A DNA stretch of 53,665 nt from Bacteroidales bacterium (GTDB lineage Bacteria > Bacteroidota > Bacteroidia > Bacteroidales > ML635J-15), in assembly GCA_027858835.1 (NCBI GenBank), contig JAQIBY010000012.1:1-53665 (forward strand). Reading direction: 5' to 3'. Of this stretch, positions 3,180-41,311 are shown piece after piece (within the stretch, counting starts at the first letter, position 1; each line of letters starts with the position of its first letter). A program made the translations under genes and the position numbers. A model generated the notes under the pieces. The model ran no database searches, was not told where the DNA came from, and worked only from the letters and a program-made list of their open reading frames with translations.

Positions 3180-6100
3180 ATGAGAAATTTTTACAAATTA
3201 ATGCCGATGTTAATCGGGCTTATCCTCATGTTGGGGAACCCCCTATTCTCATCCGGACAAACCTTAAAGTCCACTTTGGACGTTACTGAATTGCCATTCA
3301 GTGAGAACTGGGACACAGATCCCGATCCCGTTGACTGGACATACTACACGAACAGTACGGAAGGCTCCGTAACAGTTCAATCCTCAACCTATCATTCACC
3401 TGATAATGCGGTTGATATGGCAAACTCAACCGATGAAACCAGTGACTTTTTCTTGGTTTTACCGGGGACAACACTTAATCAGGTTGGAACAAGATTGAAG
3501 CTTTTTGCTAAGCATCAGTCAACCATACTAAATCCACAAAGTTTCAAAGTTGGGGTTATGACTGATCCCAACGATGAGGGCACTTACACAAACGTTTACA
3601 ACTCACCCAGTCTCACTTCAGATTGGCAAGAGTTTATTATTGATTTAAGTGCAATTCCACCACAAGGCGGAACTTATTACATTGCCATTAAAGGAGTTTT
3701 TGACGGAACAAACAAACACATCTATTTTGATGATGTTGTTTGGGAAGAAACTCCAACCGGCCCAATTTTTCAATCAACACCAGATGCGTATGATTACGGT
3801 CAAATCATGATTAACACAGACTCTGATGAGGTTGATTTTATCATGACTAACTATGGAATAGGAACTTTAAATGTTACTGACATTACGCTTAACGGTGTTG
3901 ATGCTGCAGACTTTACAGTTACAAATATTTCTGAAACACTTCCTTTTGATTTAACTGCAAACTCAGCAAACACAATCACTGTAACCGTACAGTTTTCACC
4001 TACTACTGAAGGTCTGAAAAATGCAAGTTTAGATGTTACGGCAAATACAGAAGTTAACTCAATCCCCTTGACCGGTGATTGCTTCGACCCGACCATCTAC
4101 ACATTACCTTGGTCTGAAAACTTTGAGGGTGTAGAAACTCCCGAGTTCCCAATGGGATGGTCAAATATTTTTAGTGCAGCAAATACATATGCATACTTTG
4201 AAACTGCAACAGGTGGTTTCTCTGACCCTAACTGTCTTAAAGCCTACAATAGTAGTGACACAGAGCCGGTTATGCTTTCTATCACACCTCCAACCTCTAT
4301 TGATATCTCAACAACCAGACTTCAATTTATGGCAAAAGGCCCGGATGGCATACTGACAATCGGAACCATGACTGATCATACCGATGAAGCGACATTTGAT
4401 AGCATTACCAGCATAACTATGACATCAAATTGGGAAGAGTATATTCTTGACCTTGATACTGTCACTCCGATTACCGGAACCTACTTTATCGCATTTAAAG
4501 CAGATTTTGATTTTACTTACGATTATGTTTACCTTGATGACATTACTTGGATGGAAATACCAACCACTCCGGTTGCTTTAGTAAATCCTGATTCATACGA
4601 ATTCCCACTCTTCCCGGTAGGACAAACAACAAACTCCGGAACCGTTTTGAATTTGAGAAATATGGGAGTTGGATCATTGACAGTAACAAATGTATCAGGT
4701 CTTGCCGGAACTGAATTTGCGTTTACCGACATTGACTTTGACACAGTAGCTATTGATGCACTCGACACAAGAAGTTTTGGCATTCAATACACACCAATAA
4801 CTGCCGGTACACATACTGCAACTTTGTCAATTGAAACCAACGGTGGTACAACTGAACTCAACCTTACCGCAAATGCGTATGAATTACCAGAAGGCATGAT
4901 AGAAATCGGTTGGGAACAGGAAACTGGTCATAATTTACCGATAGAAAACTATTTTGGCTATACATACTCACAAAGTTTATACACTCAAGCTGAAATCAAT
5001 GAGGTAAATTCTGCGATCACAAGCATCTTCTATCATAAAAATGATACTGTGGAGTGGGATAATATCGGACTCATTGATATTTACCTTGGACATACGACAC
5101 AAGATACAATTTCTGATTGGATACCACTTTCAGAACTTACACATGTTACCTTCTCTGAAACACTTCCGGTTTCTGATGCTGAAGGTTGGGTAGAGTTCGT
5201 TTTAGATGAACCCTTTATTTATAATAATGTGGACAACCTTATTGTTGCTGTTGATGAAAATTTTGATGGATATGGATCAGGAACAGATGAGTTCTATTGT
5301 CATAATACTGATAACTATATGAGTGCCCGCCATTACAGTGATTCAGAAAATGCAGACCCAACATCACCCCCTACAATCACTTCTGTTACATTAAATCCGG
5401 GATTGAAAAAATATCGTCCAAACATCAGAATGCAGTTTGAAGCGGTACCTGCTACTCCTACTGCTGTTTTAGATCCTGAAATCTGGGATGCAGGTCAACG
5501 TCCTGTTGGTTATACTGCTGTAAGTGATACTTACACATTAACTAATATGGGGTCAGATCCACTCACTGTATCAGCAATTACCGATTTAAGTGGTACACCA
5601 TTTAGCACAAGTTTTGTTGCCGGTGACGTTGTGGATCTTCCGCTTGCTATCGATTATGAATTTACATTTGAGTTTACACCGACGACAGAAGGTACCTACG
5701 AAACAGAATTTATTGTTGAAACCAATGGTGTTAACGATACAATCATGTTGTACGGAACCTGTGATTATTCATTACCTGCAAATATTGTAGAAGTTGGATG
5801 GGGGCTAGATACGATTAATCTTCCCATGGAGCCGGTTTCTGTTTACACCTATTCTCAATCTGTGTATAAGCAAACTGAAATTGACATGATGGATCAGGCG
5901 ATTTATCATATCTACTACAGACAAACATCCGCAACCCTTATGAATGAAGACATTAAGGTGTACATGGCACATTATGCTGATGGCACGCTTGATGATGATT
6001 GGGAAATTTTAGGAAATCTCACCCAGGTTTATGACGGAACCCTCGGTTCTCCAAATGCCGAAGGTTGGATTAAAATCTCATTCGACTTTCCTTTCATCTA

Positions 6101-9100
6101 TAATAACACGGACAACCTGATTGTTGCTTTTGATGAAAATGGAGCAGCTTCATTTGATGCTACGGATGGTTTTTATGGAAATTCAACCAATGAAAATCTT
6201 AGCAGAGCCCTTACAAATGACATCACAGATGTTGATCCGGCAAGTGTGTCAGGTGGCGATTTATTGGCACAAAGACCAAATATTCGGTTCGAATTCGGTC
6301 CATTACCAACAGATCCTTATTATAACTTAAATCTTGATTCATGGGATGCCGGTATGGTTGCCGGAAATCAAGCTGCAAACTCAGGTGATATTTTCAGAAT
6401 TACAAACCTTGGTGCTGGCACACTTACACTAACTGATGCTGTGTTCCTTGATGGTTCTGTATTCTCAACTTCATTGGTAGCAGGCGATGTCAGCCTTGAA
6501 GCTTCAGAAGAGTATTACTTCAACTTCACATTTTCACCACTTGCTGTTGGAACTTTCAACGATACATTAGTGATTACTCATGCTGATGGCACTGATACAG
6601 TTTTCCTTACCGGAACAACTGATTATGTACTACCGGAAAACATGGTCGAAATTGGTCAGGGAACTGAAGTCAATACAAGCTTACCAATGGAAGCATTTTA
6701 TGGATATTCATATTCACAATCCATTTTCCTGCAAGAGGAAATATATATGGATGGAATGAGAATCAGCAAACTTTATTATCAACGTAATGGACAAGATGAT
6801 TTAGAAAGTGCCGGTGAAATTAATATCTACATGGGTCACACGACACAAACTGAATTAACGGACTGGATTCCGCTTGCAGAACTCCAAGAAGTAACCTATT
6901 CAGAAGTTTTACCATTGCCCGATACTGATGGCTGGGTTGAGTTTGTCTTAACCACACCATACATTTACAACAACTCGGAAAATCTGGTTATTGCATTTGA
7001 CGAAAACGAATCTGGATATGATGGCAGTACGGATGAATTCTACAATCATGATGTATCTAACGACATGAGTATTCGCTACTATAATGATGGTACAAATCCT
7101 GATCCGGCAGCACCACCAATAGGCACGCTTGTCGCTTCAAGACCAAATGTTCGTTTGCAATTTGAGGAGTTACCGACAACACCTATTTTCACAGTTAACC
7201 CGGATTCTCACGATTACGGAACCACAATTATCGGAACAGATAAAACGAAAGCATTTACTGTTCAAAATAACGGGATTGATGTATTGACAATCAATAACAT
7301 TTATCTTGGTGGTGATGATGCAGCAGAGTTTGCATTGAATAATCTGCCAACATTCCCAATTGGAATTACGAATGATTATGCAGATGCATTTTCAATTGAC
7401 GCAGTTTACACACCAACAATTGAAGGCGATGTAACTGCTAAAATTTATTTCGAGCATAGTGAAGGTCTTGATTCTGTCATGCTATATGCTACAGGATACG
7501 ACGCGACCATCACATCACTCCCATGGAATGAGTATTTTGATGATCCGGCTACAACCTTTTATCCTGAAATGACACTTGGCTGGGACACTATTTTACAAAC
7601 AACGAACACTTATGCAAACATTAGTGTTTGGCAAAGTACCTATCTAACAGAACCACATTCAGTGCGTTTTTACAATAGTGGTGATACTGACCCAACAAGT
7701 GAATATATCTTAGTTACACCACGGACACAACTTGATCCGACCGGTACCAGATTAAGATTCTTTGCCGATGGTTATGCCGGTGACCAACTTATCATTGGTT
7801 ACATGACAGATCCTAATGATGCGACAACTTTCGTTGAAGTGGAAACTGTTGATTTGGAAACAGACTACACTCAGCATTTAGTAGATTTATCTTCTATTGC
7901 AACTGCCGGATATTATCATTTCGCGTTTAAAGCAGTAATGCCGAGCACGTATCACTACATCTATCTTGATAATGTAACATGGGAAACCACACCAACAACT
8001 CCGGTATTTGGAGCAATGCCTACAGCTATAGATTTTGGTGATGTTGAAATGTTAACATCAACAGATCTTGAAATAGTAGAAGTAAGAAATACTGGTGTTG
8101 GTGATTTGATTATTACCGATGTTCAACTTATTGGAGCGGAAGCGGATCAATTTTCAATTAACGTAATTGATGCACTTAACGATACAATTACTTCTGATTA
8201 TTCTGATTTCCTAACTGTTGAAGCAACGTTTAATCCTGCTTATGCTGGAATTATCACTGCAGATATCGAGTTTACCGATATTGATGCAAACACCTATACA
8301 GTTCCATTGATTGGTAACTCTATTGATGCAACAATGTATCCTGATACTTTAGTTGATTTTGAAGATGCTGTACCTCCACTATTCTGGACAAGATACTCTA
8401 GTTTGTTGAGTGAAACCATGACGCTCACATCAACAACATCAGGATGGAGTCAAGGTGACTTCTCTGGTGAGTCTTCATTAACTTCAGCTGCCAGAATTAA
8501 TATCTGGACTACAACTACCAATTATTGGCTTGTTACAAGTTCTATTGAACTTGGTGACGGAACTAACCCTGTAAAACTCGAGCTTGATTTGTCAACAACT
8601 GATTACGGAACAACTGCAGAAGCAGATCCTGCCGAAGATGACCGATTCGCTATTGTCATTTCAACCGACAATGGTGCAACCTGGACAGATGCAAATGCAT
8701 TACGTATTTACGACAATGATGGATCTGAATATGTTTTTGATGATATCCCGAACGGCGCAGGAGAACATGTTGAAATTTCTCTCGCTGACTATTCAGGACT
8801 TGTAAAAATTGGACTGTATGGTGAGTCAACCGTTTCTAATGGAGACAACTATCTGTATGTTGATAATTTCGAAGTCAGATATTTCACTGCGGAAGAACTT
8901 GCTTTACTGGATGCAGAAGAAAACACATCTATGACTGCATCTCCGGAACTTACTGTATATGAAGAAATCAATACAGATGAGCAAGCAATTGATTACACTG
9001 TTGATTATCCAACTCCATTTGATGCAAACTTAGATGCTCTCTTACTCCATGACTTCCAAGTTCAATTCAATACCATGATTCCTAACGGAACAACTGTTGA

Positions 9101-37900: not shown

Positions 37901-38635
37901 GCAGAGTACAACCGGAAAGTTGATGAATTGCAGGAAAGTGCACAACGTTTGGCGCAATCAGAGCGAGAATCAGCCTGGCGCGAAATGGCAAAACAAATTG
38001 CGCATGAAATTAAAAATCCGTTGACTCCCATGAAACTCAGCATGCAACACCTAGAGCGTGCCTATAAAGAGAAGGATCCAGATTTGGATTTTATGTTTGA
38101 TAAAGTATCCAGAACACTGGTTGAACAAATTGACAGCCTATCACAAATTGCAACTGAGTTTAGTGATTTTGCAAAAATCAGAGTGAGTAACCAACAAGAT
38201 GTGGACCTGATTGAACGAATAAAATCGGCAACGGAATTATACAACGGATTAAGCGCTGCGGCTATTATTTTTGATTGCGAGGGGCAGGAAAAGGCGATTG
38301 TTAAAGCCGATAAAGAACAAAGCCTGCGGATTTTTAATAATCTGATTAAAAATGCCGTACAATCAATTCCGAAAGAAAGGAATGGCGAAGTTCGGATAAA
38401 ACTTGAGGAAAGACCAACGCATTATCTCATTACCATTGCAGATAACGGCAAAGGAATTCCAAAAGAAATTGAGGCGCGGATTTTCTCCCCGAATTTCACG
38501 ACAAAATCTTCCGGAATGGGCTTAGGCTTAAGCATTGTGAAAGGCATTGTCGAAAATCTGAAAGGGAAAATTTATTACACAACGGAAGCCGATAAGGGAA
38601 CGATTTTCTATCTTGAATTTCCTAAGAAAAATTAG
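34961..38635 (+). CDS. Large NtrY-like membrane sensor histidine kinase
   Basis: A 1224-residue sensor; a start four codons on (34973) is equally possible. There is an N-terminal helix and a periplasmic domain up to about 205. A block of about seven membrane helices (about 205-475) follows, then a large extracytoplasmic domain, another helix (about 705-730) and a further sensor region. After a last helix and HAMP (SNQLTRPLKMI) comes the kinase. The H-box is AHEIKNPLTPMKLS with His1015, and the ATPase motifs are NNLIKNAVQSIP (about 1126), DNGKGIP (about 1160) and GMGLGLSIV (about 1185). NPLTP is the NtrY/NtrB-type H-box. No response regulator is adjacent, so it is an orphan kinase. Its stop overlaps the convergent hydE stop. 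Confidence 0.95.
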   Translation: MKVHMKQINIIILLLLATLLFGFAGHFTQKSGKIKQSNVFSQAQIESALEAKCAVLTDYINETLAADTPDSIIKHLNAHKTELQKQGLGLFVFQNGNLRFWTDRDCPISSKQRITETIDIQKLSNGWYVFKKVSNQNIVVVGSVLIKKVYNYKNPYLPAHFAKGFNIPSDFNLSLDTSAGTPISLHGKPLFSIKTVDAQINHASRLMTANLFFAVCILLLLITCLVAYDFFAKRVKFPNLLLFALAADLVLIRWLIYTLNFPGIWRELELFSPRLFAENSFVNSLGDLLLNAIFLIGFAIIFHKHFQLKLKALHNKSIRLLIHFAASGISLLLMFYSLNRFESLINNASIPYNFNNILELNGYSFVGLGIALLFFGSALLIIDKLFISLKHFKNGMSIAVSTTALLIIIFAADRIFIEMQIGHLVYLSIAAIIYLLIWLRIIKQSKLNYFSGLIFILLTSLLITTFFNARLQDKALKQQKVLAMNLSNERDAGAEYFIMEMNADLCNDERLFNLLSQANYLDAETYFKNEYMTGYLETYNFQLSLCNASDSLIIAPDNISVDCHNFFNGIINENGIILPGSDFYFLDNNNGLISYLGKIRLSVSDSLKSKIFVEINSQIQNEGPGYPELLLDKSLMPKEYSKHLAYAKYSNGQLITFKGDYEYPGSFQFNTTGNEYYKIENETWHHLIYQPNPETQIVVSQRKLVFNDYLIFFTYIFFILFMMLNITLLIVFALHYKTQIHINKSFKNRIQRYFVVLISVSIVIIGTISIIFYVQRYREKQKDNIQDKMQSVQIELNHKLGDESSLTQEMTDYMNFLLIKFSNVFYTDINLFSLDGTLLASSRQEVYDQGLVGRRMDPDAFFRLSKGNNGYFVQNESIGEMNYLSAYVPFKNNNNERMAYINLPYFAKQNQFSKEISGLTVALINVYLILFLITVLIAIFISNQLTRPLKMIQSSIREMDITQRSRKIEYDADDELGSLIAEYNRKVDELQESAQRLAQSERESAWREMAKQIAHEIKNPLTPMKLSMQHLERAYKEKDPDLDFMFDKVSRTLVEQIDSLSQIATEFSDFAKIRVSNQQDVDLIERIKSATELYNGLSAAAIIFDCEGQEKAIVKADKEQSLRIFNNLIKNAVQSIPKERNGEVRIKLEERPTHYLITIADNGKGIPKEIEARIFSPNFTTKSSGMGLGLSIVKGIVENLKGKIYYTTEADKGTIFYLEFPKKN

Positions 38636-39729
38636 GGAATTTGATTAATTCTCCGATAATAATGCAATGAGTTTCCTTGCTCACCGTAAGCAACACGGTC
38701 ACCAGCTAGATGCACACGAGCTTCAAGACATGATTTGCACTCAGCAGCATCTTCGTCCAAGCAGGGTTTGTCTTCGTAAAGCAAATAACCCTCGCGATAT
38801 TTTACCGGTGTAATATTCGGCATCAACACATTGGCTCCCACTTTCAAGGCCTTTTCTCTTCCGAGTTTATCAAGGGTTTGCATTGCAGTCGATGCTGCAA
38901 TATTGATATCAGGCATCATGATTCTTAAAATCGCAATCATCTTCAGGCTCATATCAAAACGTGTTGATTTTGGCCAGAGTTCATTTCTATATTGAAACAA
39001 AGGCGTGTCCTCATGTTCAATATAGGGGCCCATACCAACCATATCAACATCAAAATCATGAAAAAACATCAAGTCCTCAGCCAAATCCTCAACCCGCTGA
39101 AAAGGCAAACCAATCATCACTCCGGTACCGGTTTGATAATTAAGCGCTTTCAATTCTGCAAGTGCTTGCAAGCGTTTTGAATAGTCGTGCTGTTTATCTT
39201 CAGGATGAAGTTTATAATACAAATCCCGAACAGAGGTTTCTATGCGGATAAGATAGCGATTTGCACCTACTGATTTCCACTCCTCATAGGTTTCATTTGA
39301 TTGCTCTCCAAAGGAAAGTGTAATCCCCATTTCATGATTTGTCAATTTTCCGATTTTTTTCAACAAATCTGTAATCTGAGAAACAAATTGCTTATCAGAT
39401 CGCTCTCCTCCTTGAATAACAAGTGAAGCATATTTTGCATGATACGCGTACTCTACTGCATTTAGTACCTCAGCTTCAGGAACAAAATATCGTTCTACTT
39501 TTTTATTATCCCTACGTATTCCGCAGTAAAAACAATTTTTTGCACAAATATTCGAGAACTCCAATAAACCCCGATAATATGCATTATTTCCGAGGACTTT
39601 GATTTTCACAGCATTGGCTGCAGCTAGCAAGGTTTTTCTATCATCACCTTCCGTGTTTAAAAGAAAAACGATATCATCTTTTGTAAACCTTTCCTTGGCA
39701 AGAATTTCATTAATTTTTGTCATAGCCAT
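38632..39729 (-). CDS. hydE: [FeFe]-hydrogenase H-cluster radical SAM maturase HydE
   Basis: A 365-residue radical SAM enzyme. The cluster motif is CAKNCFYC (Cys62, Cys66, Cys69; CX3CX2C), followed by QGGERSDKQF and GPYIEHEDTPLFQY, which separate HydE from the related BioB and PylB. HydE acts with HydG and HydF to build the diiron subcluster of [FeFe]-hydrogenase. Neither those genes nor a hydrogenase is in the window. The start is ATG 39729 or ATG 39723. The 3' end overlaps the convergent kinase gene by 4 bases. The upstream region contains one copy of the 60-bp repeat flanking the DUF1016 gene. Confidence 0.95.
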   Translation of the reverse strand: MAMTKINEILAKERFTKDDIVFLLNTEGDDRKTLLAAANAVKIKVLGNNAYYRGLLEFSNICAKNCFYCGIRRDNKKVERYFVPEAEVLNAVEYAYHAKYASLVIQGGERSDKQFVSQITDLLKKIGKLTNHEMGITLSFGEQSNETYEEWKSVGANRYLIRIETSVRDLYYKLHPEDKQHDYSKRLQALAELKALNYQTGTGVMIGLPFQRVEDLAEDLMFFHDFDVDMVGMGPYIEHEDTPLFQYRNELWPKSTRFDMSLKMIAILRIMMPDINIAASTAMQTLDKLGREKALKVGANVLMPNITPVKYREGYLLYEDKPCLDEDAAECKSCLEARVHLAGDRVAYGEQGNSLHYYRRINQIP

Positions 39730-39764: not shown

Positions 39765-39824
39765 ATAGTTCTGTAAAAACATTTTTTTATTGCTTCTATA
39801 ATCTTTTTAAATTTGATGCTTGTC
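39765..39824. repeat. 60-bp direct repeat, left copy
   Basis: From ATAGTTCTGTAAAAAC to TTGATGCTTGTC. It matches 41025-41084 at 59 of 60 bases (difference at 39779, A versus C), with an offset of exactly 1260 bases. The two copies enclose the DUF1016 gene. Confidence 0.95.
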
Positions 39825-39854
39825 TTCAGGAAAAAGAAGAAACATCAATTTAAT

Positions 39855-40856
39855 CTATACATCAAGGTTTGAATCAAACAAATCATTTAATTTATTCCGT
39901 AATAAATCCTTGTTTATCAATTTAGTTTCATATTGACTAATAATGGTGGGTGAGGTACTTCTATTAAGTGAAATTTCAACAATGTTTTCTTCCTTTGTTT
40001 TGCATAAAATAATTCCGACACTTGGGTTTTCATGTGGTTTCTTAACGTTTTTATCTAATGCTCCTAAATAAAAATCCATTTTGCCCATATATTCAGGCTT
40101 AAATTCTCCAACTTTCAGTTCCAATGCGACCAAACAATTTAATTCTCTATGGTAAAACAATAAGTCAATTGCGTAATCTTTGTTTCCAACTTGCAATCTG
40201 TATTCTTCGTCAATAAATAGGAAGTCCTTACCAAACTCTAGAATGAAATCTTTTAAGTTTGTAAGAATTGCTTTCTTAAAGCTAAACTCTGAATAAGTAT
40301 CTTTTAATCCCAAAAACTCAAACGAGTAATAGTCTCTAAGATGTTCATTTATATTTGGATATATTTCTCTCGCTACTGGTGAGACATTTTCTTTTGACAA
40401 CAATGAGCGTTCATAAAGTCCACTTTCCAATTGTCGTGAAAGTTCTTTTTTTGAGTACTTTTCTCGTACCGCAAGTTTTAAATAGAATTCTTTTTCCTCT
40501 TCCGTTTTAGTTTGTGAAATAATAAGCATATTATTAGTCCAACCAATTTCTCTCACCAGTAGTGAGAGTTTTTCATTTTTATGATACGTTTCATAAAATT
40601 GCTTCATTCTCCATAAATTTTGAGAAGAAAATCCTTTTGAATTTGGTTCTGTATCTCTCAAAAAGTCAGATAAATTTTGAACTGTTCCGCTTCCCCAACC
40701 GTCTTTTTTGTTTTTATTTGAAATATATTCACCAATATTCCAATATAAGCCTATCAATTCTTTATTAACAGCCTTTTCAACTTTAATCCTTGCTTCTTTT
40801 ATCATCGCAAGAATTTCCTGGAAAGCTTTTTTATCGTGTAATTCTAATTCATTCAT
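39855..40856 (-). CDS. DUF1016 (YhcG-type) PDDEXK nuclease-domain protein
   Basis: A 333-residue protein. The N-terminal DUF1016 part has the motif LIGLYWNIGEYIS and the stretch GWGSGTVQNLSDFLR ... GFSSQNLWRMKQFYETY. The C-terminal PDDEXK-like nuclease fold has YAIDLLFYHRELNCLVALELKVGEF, with the Asp, Glu and Lys of the core motif, and ends VGIILCKTKEEN. Proteins of this family are scattered among mobile and defence-associated genes; their role is not established, with DNA processing suspected. It is a single gene in a 1260-base unit bounded by 60-bp direct repeats, which suggests transfer. A TAACTTTG element (40868-40861 on the minus strand) lies only 4 bases before the ATG, so the mRNA could be nearly leaderless. 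Confidence 0.92.
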   Translation of the reverse strand: MNELELHDKKAFQEILAMIKEARIKVEKAVNKELIGLYWNIGEYISNKNKKDGWGSGTVQNLSDFLRDTEPNSKGFSSQNLWRMKQFYETYHKNEKLSLLVREIGWTNNMLIISQTKTEEEKEFYLKLAVREKYSKKELSRQLESGLYERSLLSKENVSPVAREIYPNINEHLRDYYSFEFLGLKDTYSEFSFKKAILTNLKDFILEFGKDFLFIDEEYRLQVGNKDYAIDLLFYHRELNCLVALELKVGEFKPEYMGKMDFYLGALDKNVKKPHENPSVGIILCKTKEENIVEISLNRSTSPTIISQYETKLINKDLLRNKLNDLFDSNLDV

Positions 40857-41024
40857 ACTGCAAAGTTAATCAATATTCTATTCCGTTTTATCGATAAGTT
40901 TGAGACTAGTCAAAATTGAACACAACGAGTATCATTGTATAGCTGGCTTTGCACGGCAGCTTCCAGCCGCAAACGCACAAAATTGAGGAGGGCTAAAATT
41001 AGCACTGAAACTACAGTTAAATAT

Positions 41025-41084
41025 ATAGTTCTGTAAAACCATTTTTTTATTGCTTCTATAATCTTTTTAAATTTGATGCTTGTC
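41025..41084. repeat. 60-bp direct repeat, right copy
   Basis: Second copy of the repeat at 39765-39824. It ends 20 bases before the stop of the XRE regulator gene. Without the insert, this region would join the XRE gene tail directly to the hydE upstream region through a single copy. Confidence 0.95.
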
Positions 41085-41104: not shown

Positions 41105-41311
41105 TCACAACCAATCCGAATCTTCCAATTCAAAAATTGCATCCACTGTGCTATTAAAAACCGATGCAATTTTCAATGCCAAAGTAATTGACAAATTATA
41201 ATTCCCTTTTTCAATGGCATTAATGGTTTGTCGGCTGACATTTACACGTTCTGCCAGTTGGGCTTGTGTCATATCAAGCTTTGCACGTTCAACTTTAATA
41301 CTATGCTTCAT
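41105..41311 (-). CDS. XRE-family transcriptional regulator, small form
   Basis: A 68-residue helix-turn-helix protein of the short YozG-like type. The HTH reads MTQAQLAERVNVSRQTINAIEKG (about residues 14-36), followed by the dimer-forming tail LSITLALKIASVFNSTVDAIFELE. Its start overlaps the end of the preceding membrane-protein gene by 11 bases, so the two are translationally coupled. Such regulator/membrane pairs are common and usually autoregulated; a possible operator lies at the promoter of the pair. Confidence 0.95.
   Translation of the reverse strand: MKHSIKVERAKLDMTQAQLAERVNVSRQTINAIEKGNYNLSITLALKIASVFNSTVDAIFELEDSDWL

Follow-up and report, generated by a model that had tools for sequence, protein, structure and literature searches.

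How does a lone gene come to lie between two nearly identical 60-bp sequences, and what keeps it under control there? These questions are raised by a DUF1016/YhcG nuclease gene (39855..40856, minus strand, 333 aa) in the window, i.e. in the whole stretch of 53,665 nucleotides that was analysed. The first repeat copy (39765..39824, 60 bp) is located upstream of a radical SAM (hydE-like) gene (38632..39729, minus strand), and the second copy (41025..41084, 60 bp with one difference) adjoins the end of a gene encoding an XRE-type regulator of 68 aa (41105..41311, minus strand). The 1,200 bp between the copies (39825..41024) would represent the inserted stretch. Recomputation confirmed two copies that are identical at 59 of 60 positions, are offset by exactly 1260 and enclose a single gene, as had been described in a sequence-only reading of this DNA. 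The DUF1016 gene is the sole ORF of at least 80 aa inside the insert, and the unit contains neither a recombinase nor a cognate methyltransferase.

Gene content of the locus and probable origin of the insert

In the 4.5 kb around the locus, the longest exact repeat comprises 45 bases, while first-order Markov controls (n = 100) gave at most 16, so that the 60-bp repeats cannot be put down to chance or low complexity. At E ≤ 0.001, no third copy was found in the source assembly (3.6 Mb, 184 contigs), plasmids gave no match, and a 40-base part of the 60-mer had no exact counterpart in viral contigs. A dispersed repeat was therefore rejected. Many dispersed copies had been named in the sequence-only reading as an observation against an integrated unit; the genome-wide search gave only two. 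A DNA search of 41 genomes (the source and 40 relatives) provided no usable relative for an empty site at the window locus. Also, the hydE-like loci of relatives (46 genomes searched, 29 loci) showed a protein identity of just 49–61%, and their matches to the 60-mer were short and weak. Such matches in L013, at an ORF end reading like a sigma factor, and in L014 were set aside after translation as AT-rich similarity.

The window protein carries both domains of the DUF1016/YhcG family (E. coli YhcG, PDC-S02), namely DUF1016_N and YhcG_C with E-values of 3.2e-41 and 2e-52, and these are its only Pfam domains. In PADLOC, the 17 best of 31 matches to the protein were PDC-S02, a phage-defence candidate. 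DUF1016 genes were present in 103 of the 296 genomes of the phylum searched. In viral contigs, the search yielded one DUF1016 relative for the window protein, and the patterns applied for E. coli YhcG yielded none. In one publication, DUF1016 is treated as mobile cargo (PMC4316617).

Among the best 80 of 540 loci, the closest relatives of the window gene (86–87% of residues) belong to Alkalitalea saponilacus (L031) and two MAGs (L032, L033), all of them other Bacteroidota. DNA homology to the A. saponilacus locus extends from 39854 to 40927 and ends at CACAACG. There, the gene sits between elements ending with GTTGTG; the downstream element starts with CACAAC, has palindromic ends and is absent from the window locus. 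We call these elements attC-like on the basis of sequence reading rather than of a model. Since the A. saponilacus gene lies between two of them, the window gene was probably carried as a cassette in an attC-like array. The putative cut 3′ end of such an element is located at 40920..40990 (minus strand, outer limit approximate). It contains the interleaved inverted pairs GCTGG/CCAGC and TTTGC/GCAAA, which had been reported at 40942-40973 and are indeed present; they are best read as part of this truncated cassette element and not as ends of a mobile unit. With the upstream element apparently cut and the downstream one missing, the insert would be a fragment with arbitrary ends and not a clean cassette.

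The likeness to integron cassettes with attC sites thus consists in the position of the A. saponilacus gene between such elements and in an array in the source genome, whereas the window retains just the cut end of one element and has no attC-like site downstream of the gene. The array, in contig C68 at 25.2–29.6 kb (L116), consists of small genes with repeats of ~200 nt that have AACTCGTTTATAA...TTATAAACGAGTT ends and an attC-like look. A second DUF1016 gene of the source genome is located in it. For an integron integrase, the best match in the source genome, whose assembly may be incomplete, reached 119.5 bits at a cut-off of 265, and G031 was the only one of 61 genomes searched with an integrase above the cut-off. 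In a search of five loci, no known RNA family reached its gathering score.

Long flanking repeats at related loci and an empty site

Flanking repeats were counted at two sets of DUF1016 loci. The first set comprised the best 80 of 540 loci found, of which 60 had 1 kb on both sides and 20 were dropped. The second, independent set comprised 80 loci from the 296 genomes of the phylum with 82 ORFs, of which six with less than 1 kb of flank were dropped, leaving 76. A repeat was counted if it was direct, had at least 40 bp and at least 85% identity, and lay within 1 kb on each side. The run on the first set used a limit of 30 bp; all eight positives exceeded 50 bp, and the controls gave 7/182 at 30 bp and 6/182 at 40 bp. 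With looser settings (1.5 kb, E ≤ 0.01), 21 of 80 loci had initially been marked, several of them with repeats of chance size.

In the first set, 8/60 DUF1016 genes were flanked by repeats compared to 6/182 neighbouring ORFs; in the second set, the counts were 9/76 and 1/56 (p = 0.04). For both sets pooled, such repeats flanked 17 of 136 DUF1016 genes and 7 of 238 ORFs in the neighbourhood (Fisher p = 0.0006), while clear duplications alone were not significant in the second set (6/76 vs 1/56, p = 0.24). The repeats at different DUF1016 loci are mutually unrelated and measure roughly 50–250 bp. Read singly, 9 of the 17 repeat-flanked cases have the appearance of duplicated gene ends or unique DNA. 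Repeats covered the 3′ end of a small ORF in an archaeal MAG (L058, 63 bp), a gene 3′ end (L228, 90 bp), the vicinity of a gene's 3′ end (L226, 215 bp), a gene 5′ end (L256, 88 bp), a 5′ end with upstream DNA (L254, 84 bp) and the 5′ end of a large ORF, presumably hsdR (L076, 98 bp). The repeat of L067 (115 bp) falls into the same class of duplicated gene end or unique DNA, and L249 accounts for two of the nine cases, with about 192 bp around two tandem DUF1016 genes. Six of the 17 are of other or ambiguous kinds (L057, L204, L209, L260, L091, L102), and L049 and L074 are also ambiguous. By reading, the L057 repeats contain an apparent tRNA 3′ end, the L204 repeat is attC-like, that of L209 is dispersed and that of L260 terminator-like.

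Genes of three other families were counted with 0.9 kb per side, starting from 30 loci each; 29, 26 and 25 genes of RhuM (PF13310), ORF6N (PF10543) and Fic (PF02661), respectively, were read, and sufficient flank was available for 27, 24 and 19 of them. Repeats flanked 4/27 RhuM genes, 1/24 ORF6N genes and 0/19 Fic genes; two of the RhuM cases (L263 and L264) are closely alike and not independent. Long target duplication is thus not peculiar to DUF1016. In L263 and L264, the RhuM gene is flanked by a repeat of 87–88 bp that resembles a gene end and whose translation we take to be the end of a peptidase.

E. coli yhcG, located between yhcF and nanQ in K-12, was rejected as a source of empty sites, as the five variants examined consisted of four truncated genes beside an IS/transposase ORF and one frameshift. 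For instance, in strain 13KWH46 (L147) the truncated yhcG is followed by a transposase ORF, and in strain NZRM4165 (L151) yhcG is frameshifted.

An empty site was obtained for L256 by searching 40 genomes of the same genus, that of L256 included. In genome G300, both L256 flanks are found in one contig with 98.8% and 94.9% identity, and their alignments share exactly 88 bp. The junction is a single copy of the 88-bp repeat, with identical 30-bp outer flanks on both sides, and the 1,365 bp of L256 comprising the DUF1016 gene and its surroundings are absent. The single copy equals copy 1 of L256 at positions 3 and 18 and copy 2 at positions 78–80, and differs from both at position 24. Accordingly, the L256 copies are changed on their insert-facing sides only, copy 2 at 3 and 18 and copy 1 at 78–80. 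Four other loci of the genus share with the L256 insert little beyond the ORF or a part thereof (79–87%).

By analogy with this site and with the recurrent repeats, we consider it likely that the window gene, too, was inserted with a long target duplication. The integrated unit or duplication-mediated gain proposed in the sequence-only reading is therefore supported, by analogy, as the gain of a foreign gene with target duplication; the suggested involvement of the DUF1016 protein in the movement is not. A foreign fragment of ~1.2 kb, comprising the DUF1016 gene and the cut attC-like end, would have entered between the XRE and radical SAM genes, and 60 bp of the target would have been duplicated thereby. 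The target would probably have been broken with widely staggered ends, after which the fragment was captured and both ends were filled in. Alternatively, an allele already duplicated may have been passed between strains by homologous recombination.

Restriction-modification genes are described as inserting with long and variable target duplications on the order of 100 bp in PMC3874152 and PMC3031569, which cite Nobusato et al. 2000 and Furuta et al. 2010; a further account of that work is found in PMC3154945. The DUF1016 cases resemble these insertions in that a single gene or small set is involved without a transposase, the duplication is long and variable, and one DUF1016 insertion has a true empty site. 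They differ in that the DUF1016 nuclease is alone, without a methyltransferase, and in that the empty site is known at L256 and not at the window locus. No description of target duplication for the DUF1016/YhcG family was found in the literature searched.

Transfer by homologous recombination could also stand on its own, if a circle or fragment with the gene and one or two target copies recombined, by single crossover or allelically, with a single resident copy. All differences between the two L256 copies face the insert, as expected from a diverged donor, and these inner-side changes hint at such recombination more than at simple fill-in. However, they amount to only three mutational events, for which this arrangement has a chance of 1 in 8, the origin of the first duplication would be left unexplained, and the targets differ between loci; as a full account, we regard it as unlikely. 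Still less probable is the site-specific integration of a non-autonomous element with the 60-bp repeats as attL and attR and a recombinase acting in trans. The near-exact terminal repeats, the small size of the unit without its own recombinase and the apparent tRNA 3′ end in the L057 repeats would fit such an element. It is opposed by the lack of relatedness and the length range of the repeats among DUF1016 loci, and by the searches at the window locus, which gave no third genomic copy, no plasmid match and no 40-base match in viral contigs. Insertion with a long target duplication remains the reading that we prefer.

Palindromes within the genes and their possible reader

The window gene contains two palindromic sites on the minus strand. 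Site 1 (40550..40568, CTCTCACTACTGGTGAGAG) has 8 of 9 complementary pairs and covers codons 97–103; site 2 (40367..40385, GTCTCACCAGTAGCGAGAG) has 6 of 9 pairs and lies 183 nt beyond site 1. A perfect palindrome with 9-base arms does not occur in the whole 53-kb window. Among 82 DUF1016 genes, the mean number of palindromes per gene was 1.05 compared to 0.12 after codon shuffling. In a codon alignment, for which 158 of 159 DUF1016 genes were used, site 1 had 7.74 of 9 complementary pairs vs 3.79 after synonymous shuffling, and site 2 had 4.55 vs 2.76, while the largest excess elsewhere was 0.54 with sites 1 and 2 and their neighbouring bases excluded. The synonymous shuffling rules out that the palindrome merely follows from the protein sequence. 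Site 1 had at least 6 of 9 pairs in 141 of 154 genes (13 were without), site 2 in just 62 of 153. Perfect 19-bp palindromes occurred in 70/158 DUF1016 genes vs 1/112 neighbouring ORFs.

The sequence of site 1 varies strongly. The 141 sites comprise 54 distinct 7-nt arms around a centre that usually reads CANTG, and the encoded residues change with the DNA (LSPLVR, LSTLLR, LSALLR, but also GQQPAD or VQRTVA). In 102 pairs of nearest relatives, double compensatory changes numbered 88 (nine control offsets: 7–14) and one-sided changes 124 (control offsets: 302–394). This shows that the DUF1016 palindromes are under selection and are kept by compensatory changes. Clear sites span Bacteroidota, Firmicutes, Sulfurimonas, Treponema, Kangiella and an archaeal MAG.

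In E. coli yhcG, three palindromes lie inside the gene, and a fourth follows immediately after its end. This gene is often broken: 10 of the 60 records listed match positions 1-406 only and end within the third palindrome. The source genome has five YhcG_C matches, and the window, L016 and L204 genes carry different palindromes. Agreement between palindromes of DUF1016 genes of one genome was 0/15 pairs, a count without a baseline for unrelated pairs and hence of no evidential weight. Within 5 kb outside the gene, extra copies of the own palindrome numbered 12 in 6 of 135 loci, seven of them in L040, and scrambled palindromes gave 0. Downstream of the L040 DUF1016 gene (G012 contig, 6100-6972), an ORF of repeated LSALLREI-type units is found, in which a perfect palindrome encodes each unit, with seven copies in less than 1 kb; we take the neighbouring ORFs to be a CRISPR-Cas operon.

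Conserved palindromes were also detected in two of the three other families, for which the sets came from a single phylum and included near relatives. The 29 RhuM genes have one 25-bp palindrome with 8.17 of 9 pairs vs 5.85, the outer arms of which alternate between AACT...AGTT and AGTT...AACT, and the 26 ORF6N genes have one of up to 27 bp (7.85 vs 4.22). In 25 Fic genes, no conserved palindrome was found, the best position having 3.3 of 9 pairs. Perfect palindromes occurred in 17/29 RhuM and 10/26 ORF6N genes, and there was one in one of the 25 Fic genes. The best PADLOC matches of a RhuM protein were PDC-S05 models. No description of intragenic palindromes in DUF1016/YhcG/PDC-S02, RhuM or ORF6N was found in the literature, which was covered mostly outside subscription journals and preprints and included the accessible parts of PMC4316617, PMC5704556 and PMC5771137; this silence is a weak sign of novelty.

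A candidate for the reader of the palindrome is the N-terminal domain. For the fold alignment, 53 of 75 open-frame loci were aligned to the window protein; L033, L045, L047, L058 and L075 were left out, as their matched stretch is not one open frame. Sequence searches gave no solved structural relative at E ≤ 1. The full-length model was moderate (pLDDT 75, pTM 0.44); in it, the C-terminal part resembles nucleases, for instance EndoMS (Z 9.1), and represents a PD-(D/E)XK domain. Modelled alone, the N-domain reached a pLDDT of 93 and a pTM of 0.81. Its 12 best structural matches were all ParB, Noc or Spo0J proteins (95–103 residues, 2.0–3.0 Å) with Z 8.3–10.4 and the next match at 6.6, although a Z near 10 can be generic for helical domains, from their arrangement alone. 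Foldseek placed the same ParB/Noc/Spo0J proteins first, yet with E ≥ 0.37. The N-domain is thus predicted to resemble the DNA-binding domain of ParB and Noc. The parS and NBS sites are palindromes, and parS can lie within a parB gene. According to PDB titles, these sites are bound by ParB and Noc, respectively. The likeness to ParB/Noc would comprise the predicted fold of the N-domain and a palindromic site associated with the DUF1016 gene. In contrast, DUF1016 proteins have a nuclease domain, no ParB CTPase domain in Pfam and site sequences that vary within the family; as the N-terminal CTPase domain is absent, we do not file DUF1016 as ParB.

The palindromes could instead act as hairpins in RNA or single-stranded DNA, with paired arms and the CANTG centre as loop, and not as duplex sites bound by a protein. 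The centre is conserved, the seven outer pairs are free to change as long as the partner base compensates, and the mRNA could fold accordingly. Also, G-T mismatches on the coding strand of site 1 are commoner than A-C mismatches (30 vs 20, pairs 3–9). This excess is modest, however, and at site 2 the numbers are equal (9 and 9). Furthermore, the pairing in RhuM and ORF6N extends near the centre, and the N-domain is predicted to resemble proteins that bind duplex palindromes. We therefore rate hairpins as possible but doubtful.

Proposed control of the gene and significance

That the DUF1016 protein reads the palindrome inside its own gene is an evenly balanced proposition. The ParB/Noc-like N-domain would probably bind the palindrome, and the most likely effect of such binding would be to hold down the expression of the own gene, with the PD-(D/E)XK domain as effector. 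The DUF1016 gene would be viable as a lone movable ORF because the site needed and its reader are both encoded within it.

A part of the protein in moving its own gene, as suggested in the sequence-only reading, was not borne out. Such self-mobilisation, in which the nuclease cuts the target and thereby inserts its own gene, would agree with the PD-(D/E)XK nuclease joined to a DNA-binding-like domain and with the recurrence of repeats around the family. However, RhuM genes, which encode a different protein, have a similar rate of repeats (4/27), so that a mover other than the DUF1016 protein is conceivable; relative to the cassette, the insert has arbitrary ends, and the 12 palindrome copies located outside the 135 genes tested do not lie within the listed target repeats. 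We consider self-mobilisation highly improbable.

Taken as a class, DUF1016, RhuM and ORF6N could be lone accessory genes that carry a palindrome recognised by their own protein within the ORF, a reading for which we see about an even chance. Moves of such genes would often be accompanied by a long target duplication, and in DUF1016 the reader would be the ParB/Noc-like domain fused to a PD-(D/E)XK nuclease. With site and DNA-binding domain within a few hundred bases, the specificity could change, and the gene could move alone into any operon and still be controlled.

A selected palindrome within the DUF1016 gene offers a concrete and cheap test of what the protein binds, and since RhuM and ORF6N share the feature, lone genes settling in foreign operons may follow a common design. 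Two of the three palindrome families, DUF1016 (PDC-S02) and RhuM (PDC-S05), are already listed as phage-defence candidates. The empty site of L256 in G300 shows a route of entry with a long target duplication and without a transposase. Thereby, both the movement of restriction-like genes and their taming on arrival become testable in laboratory strains.
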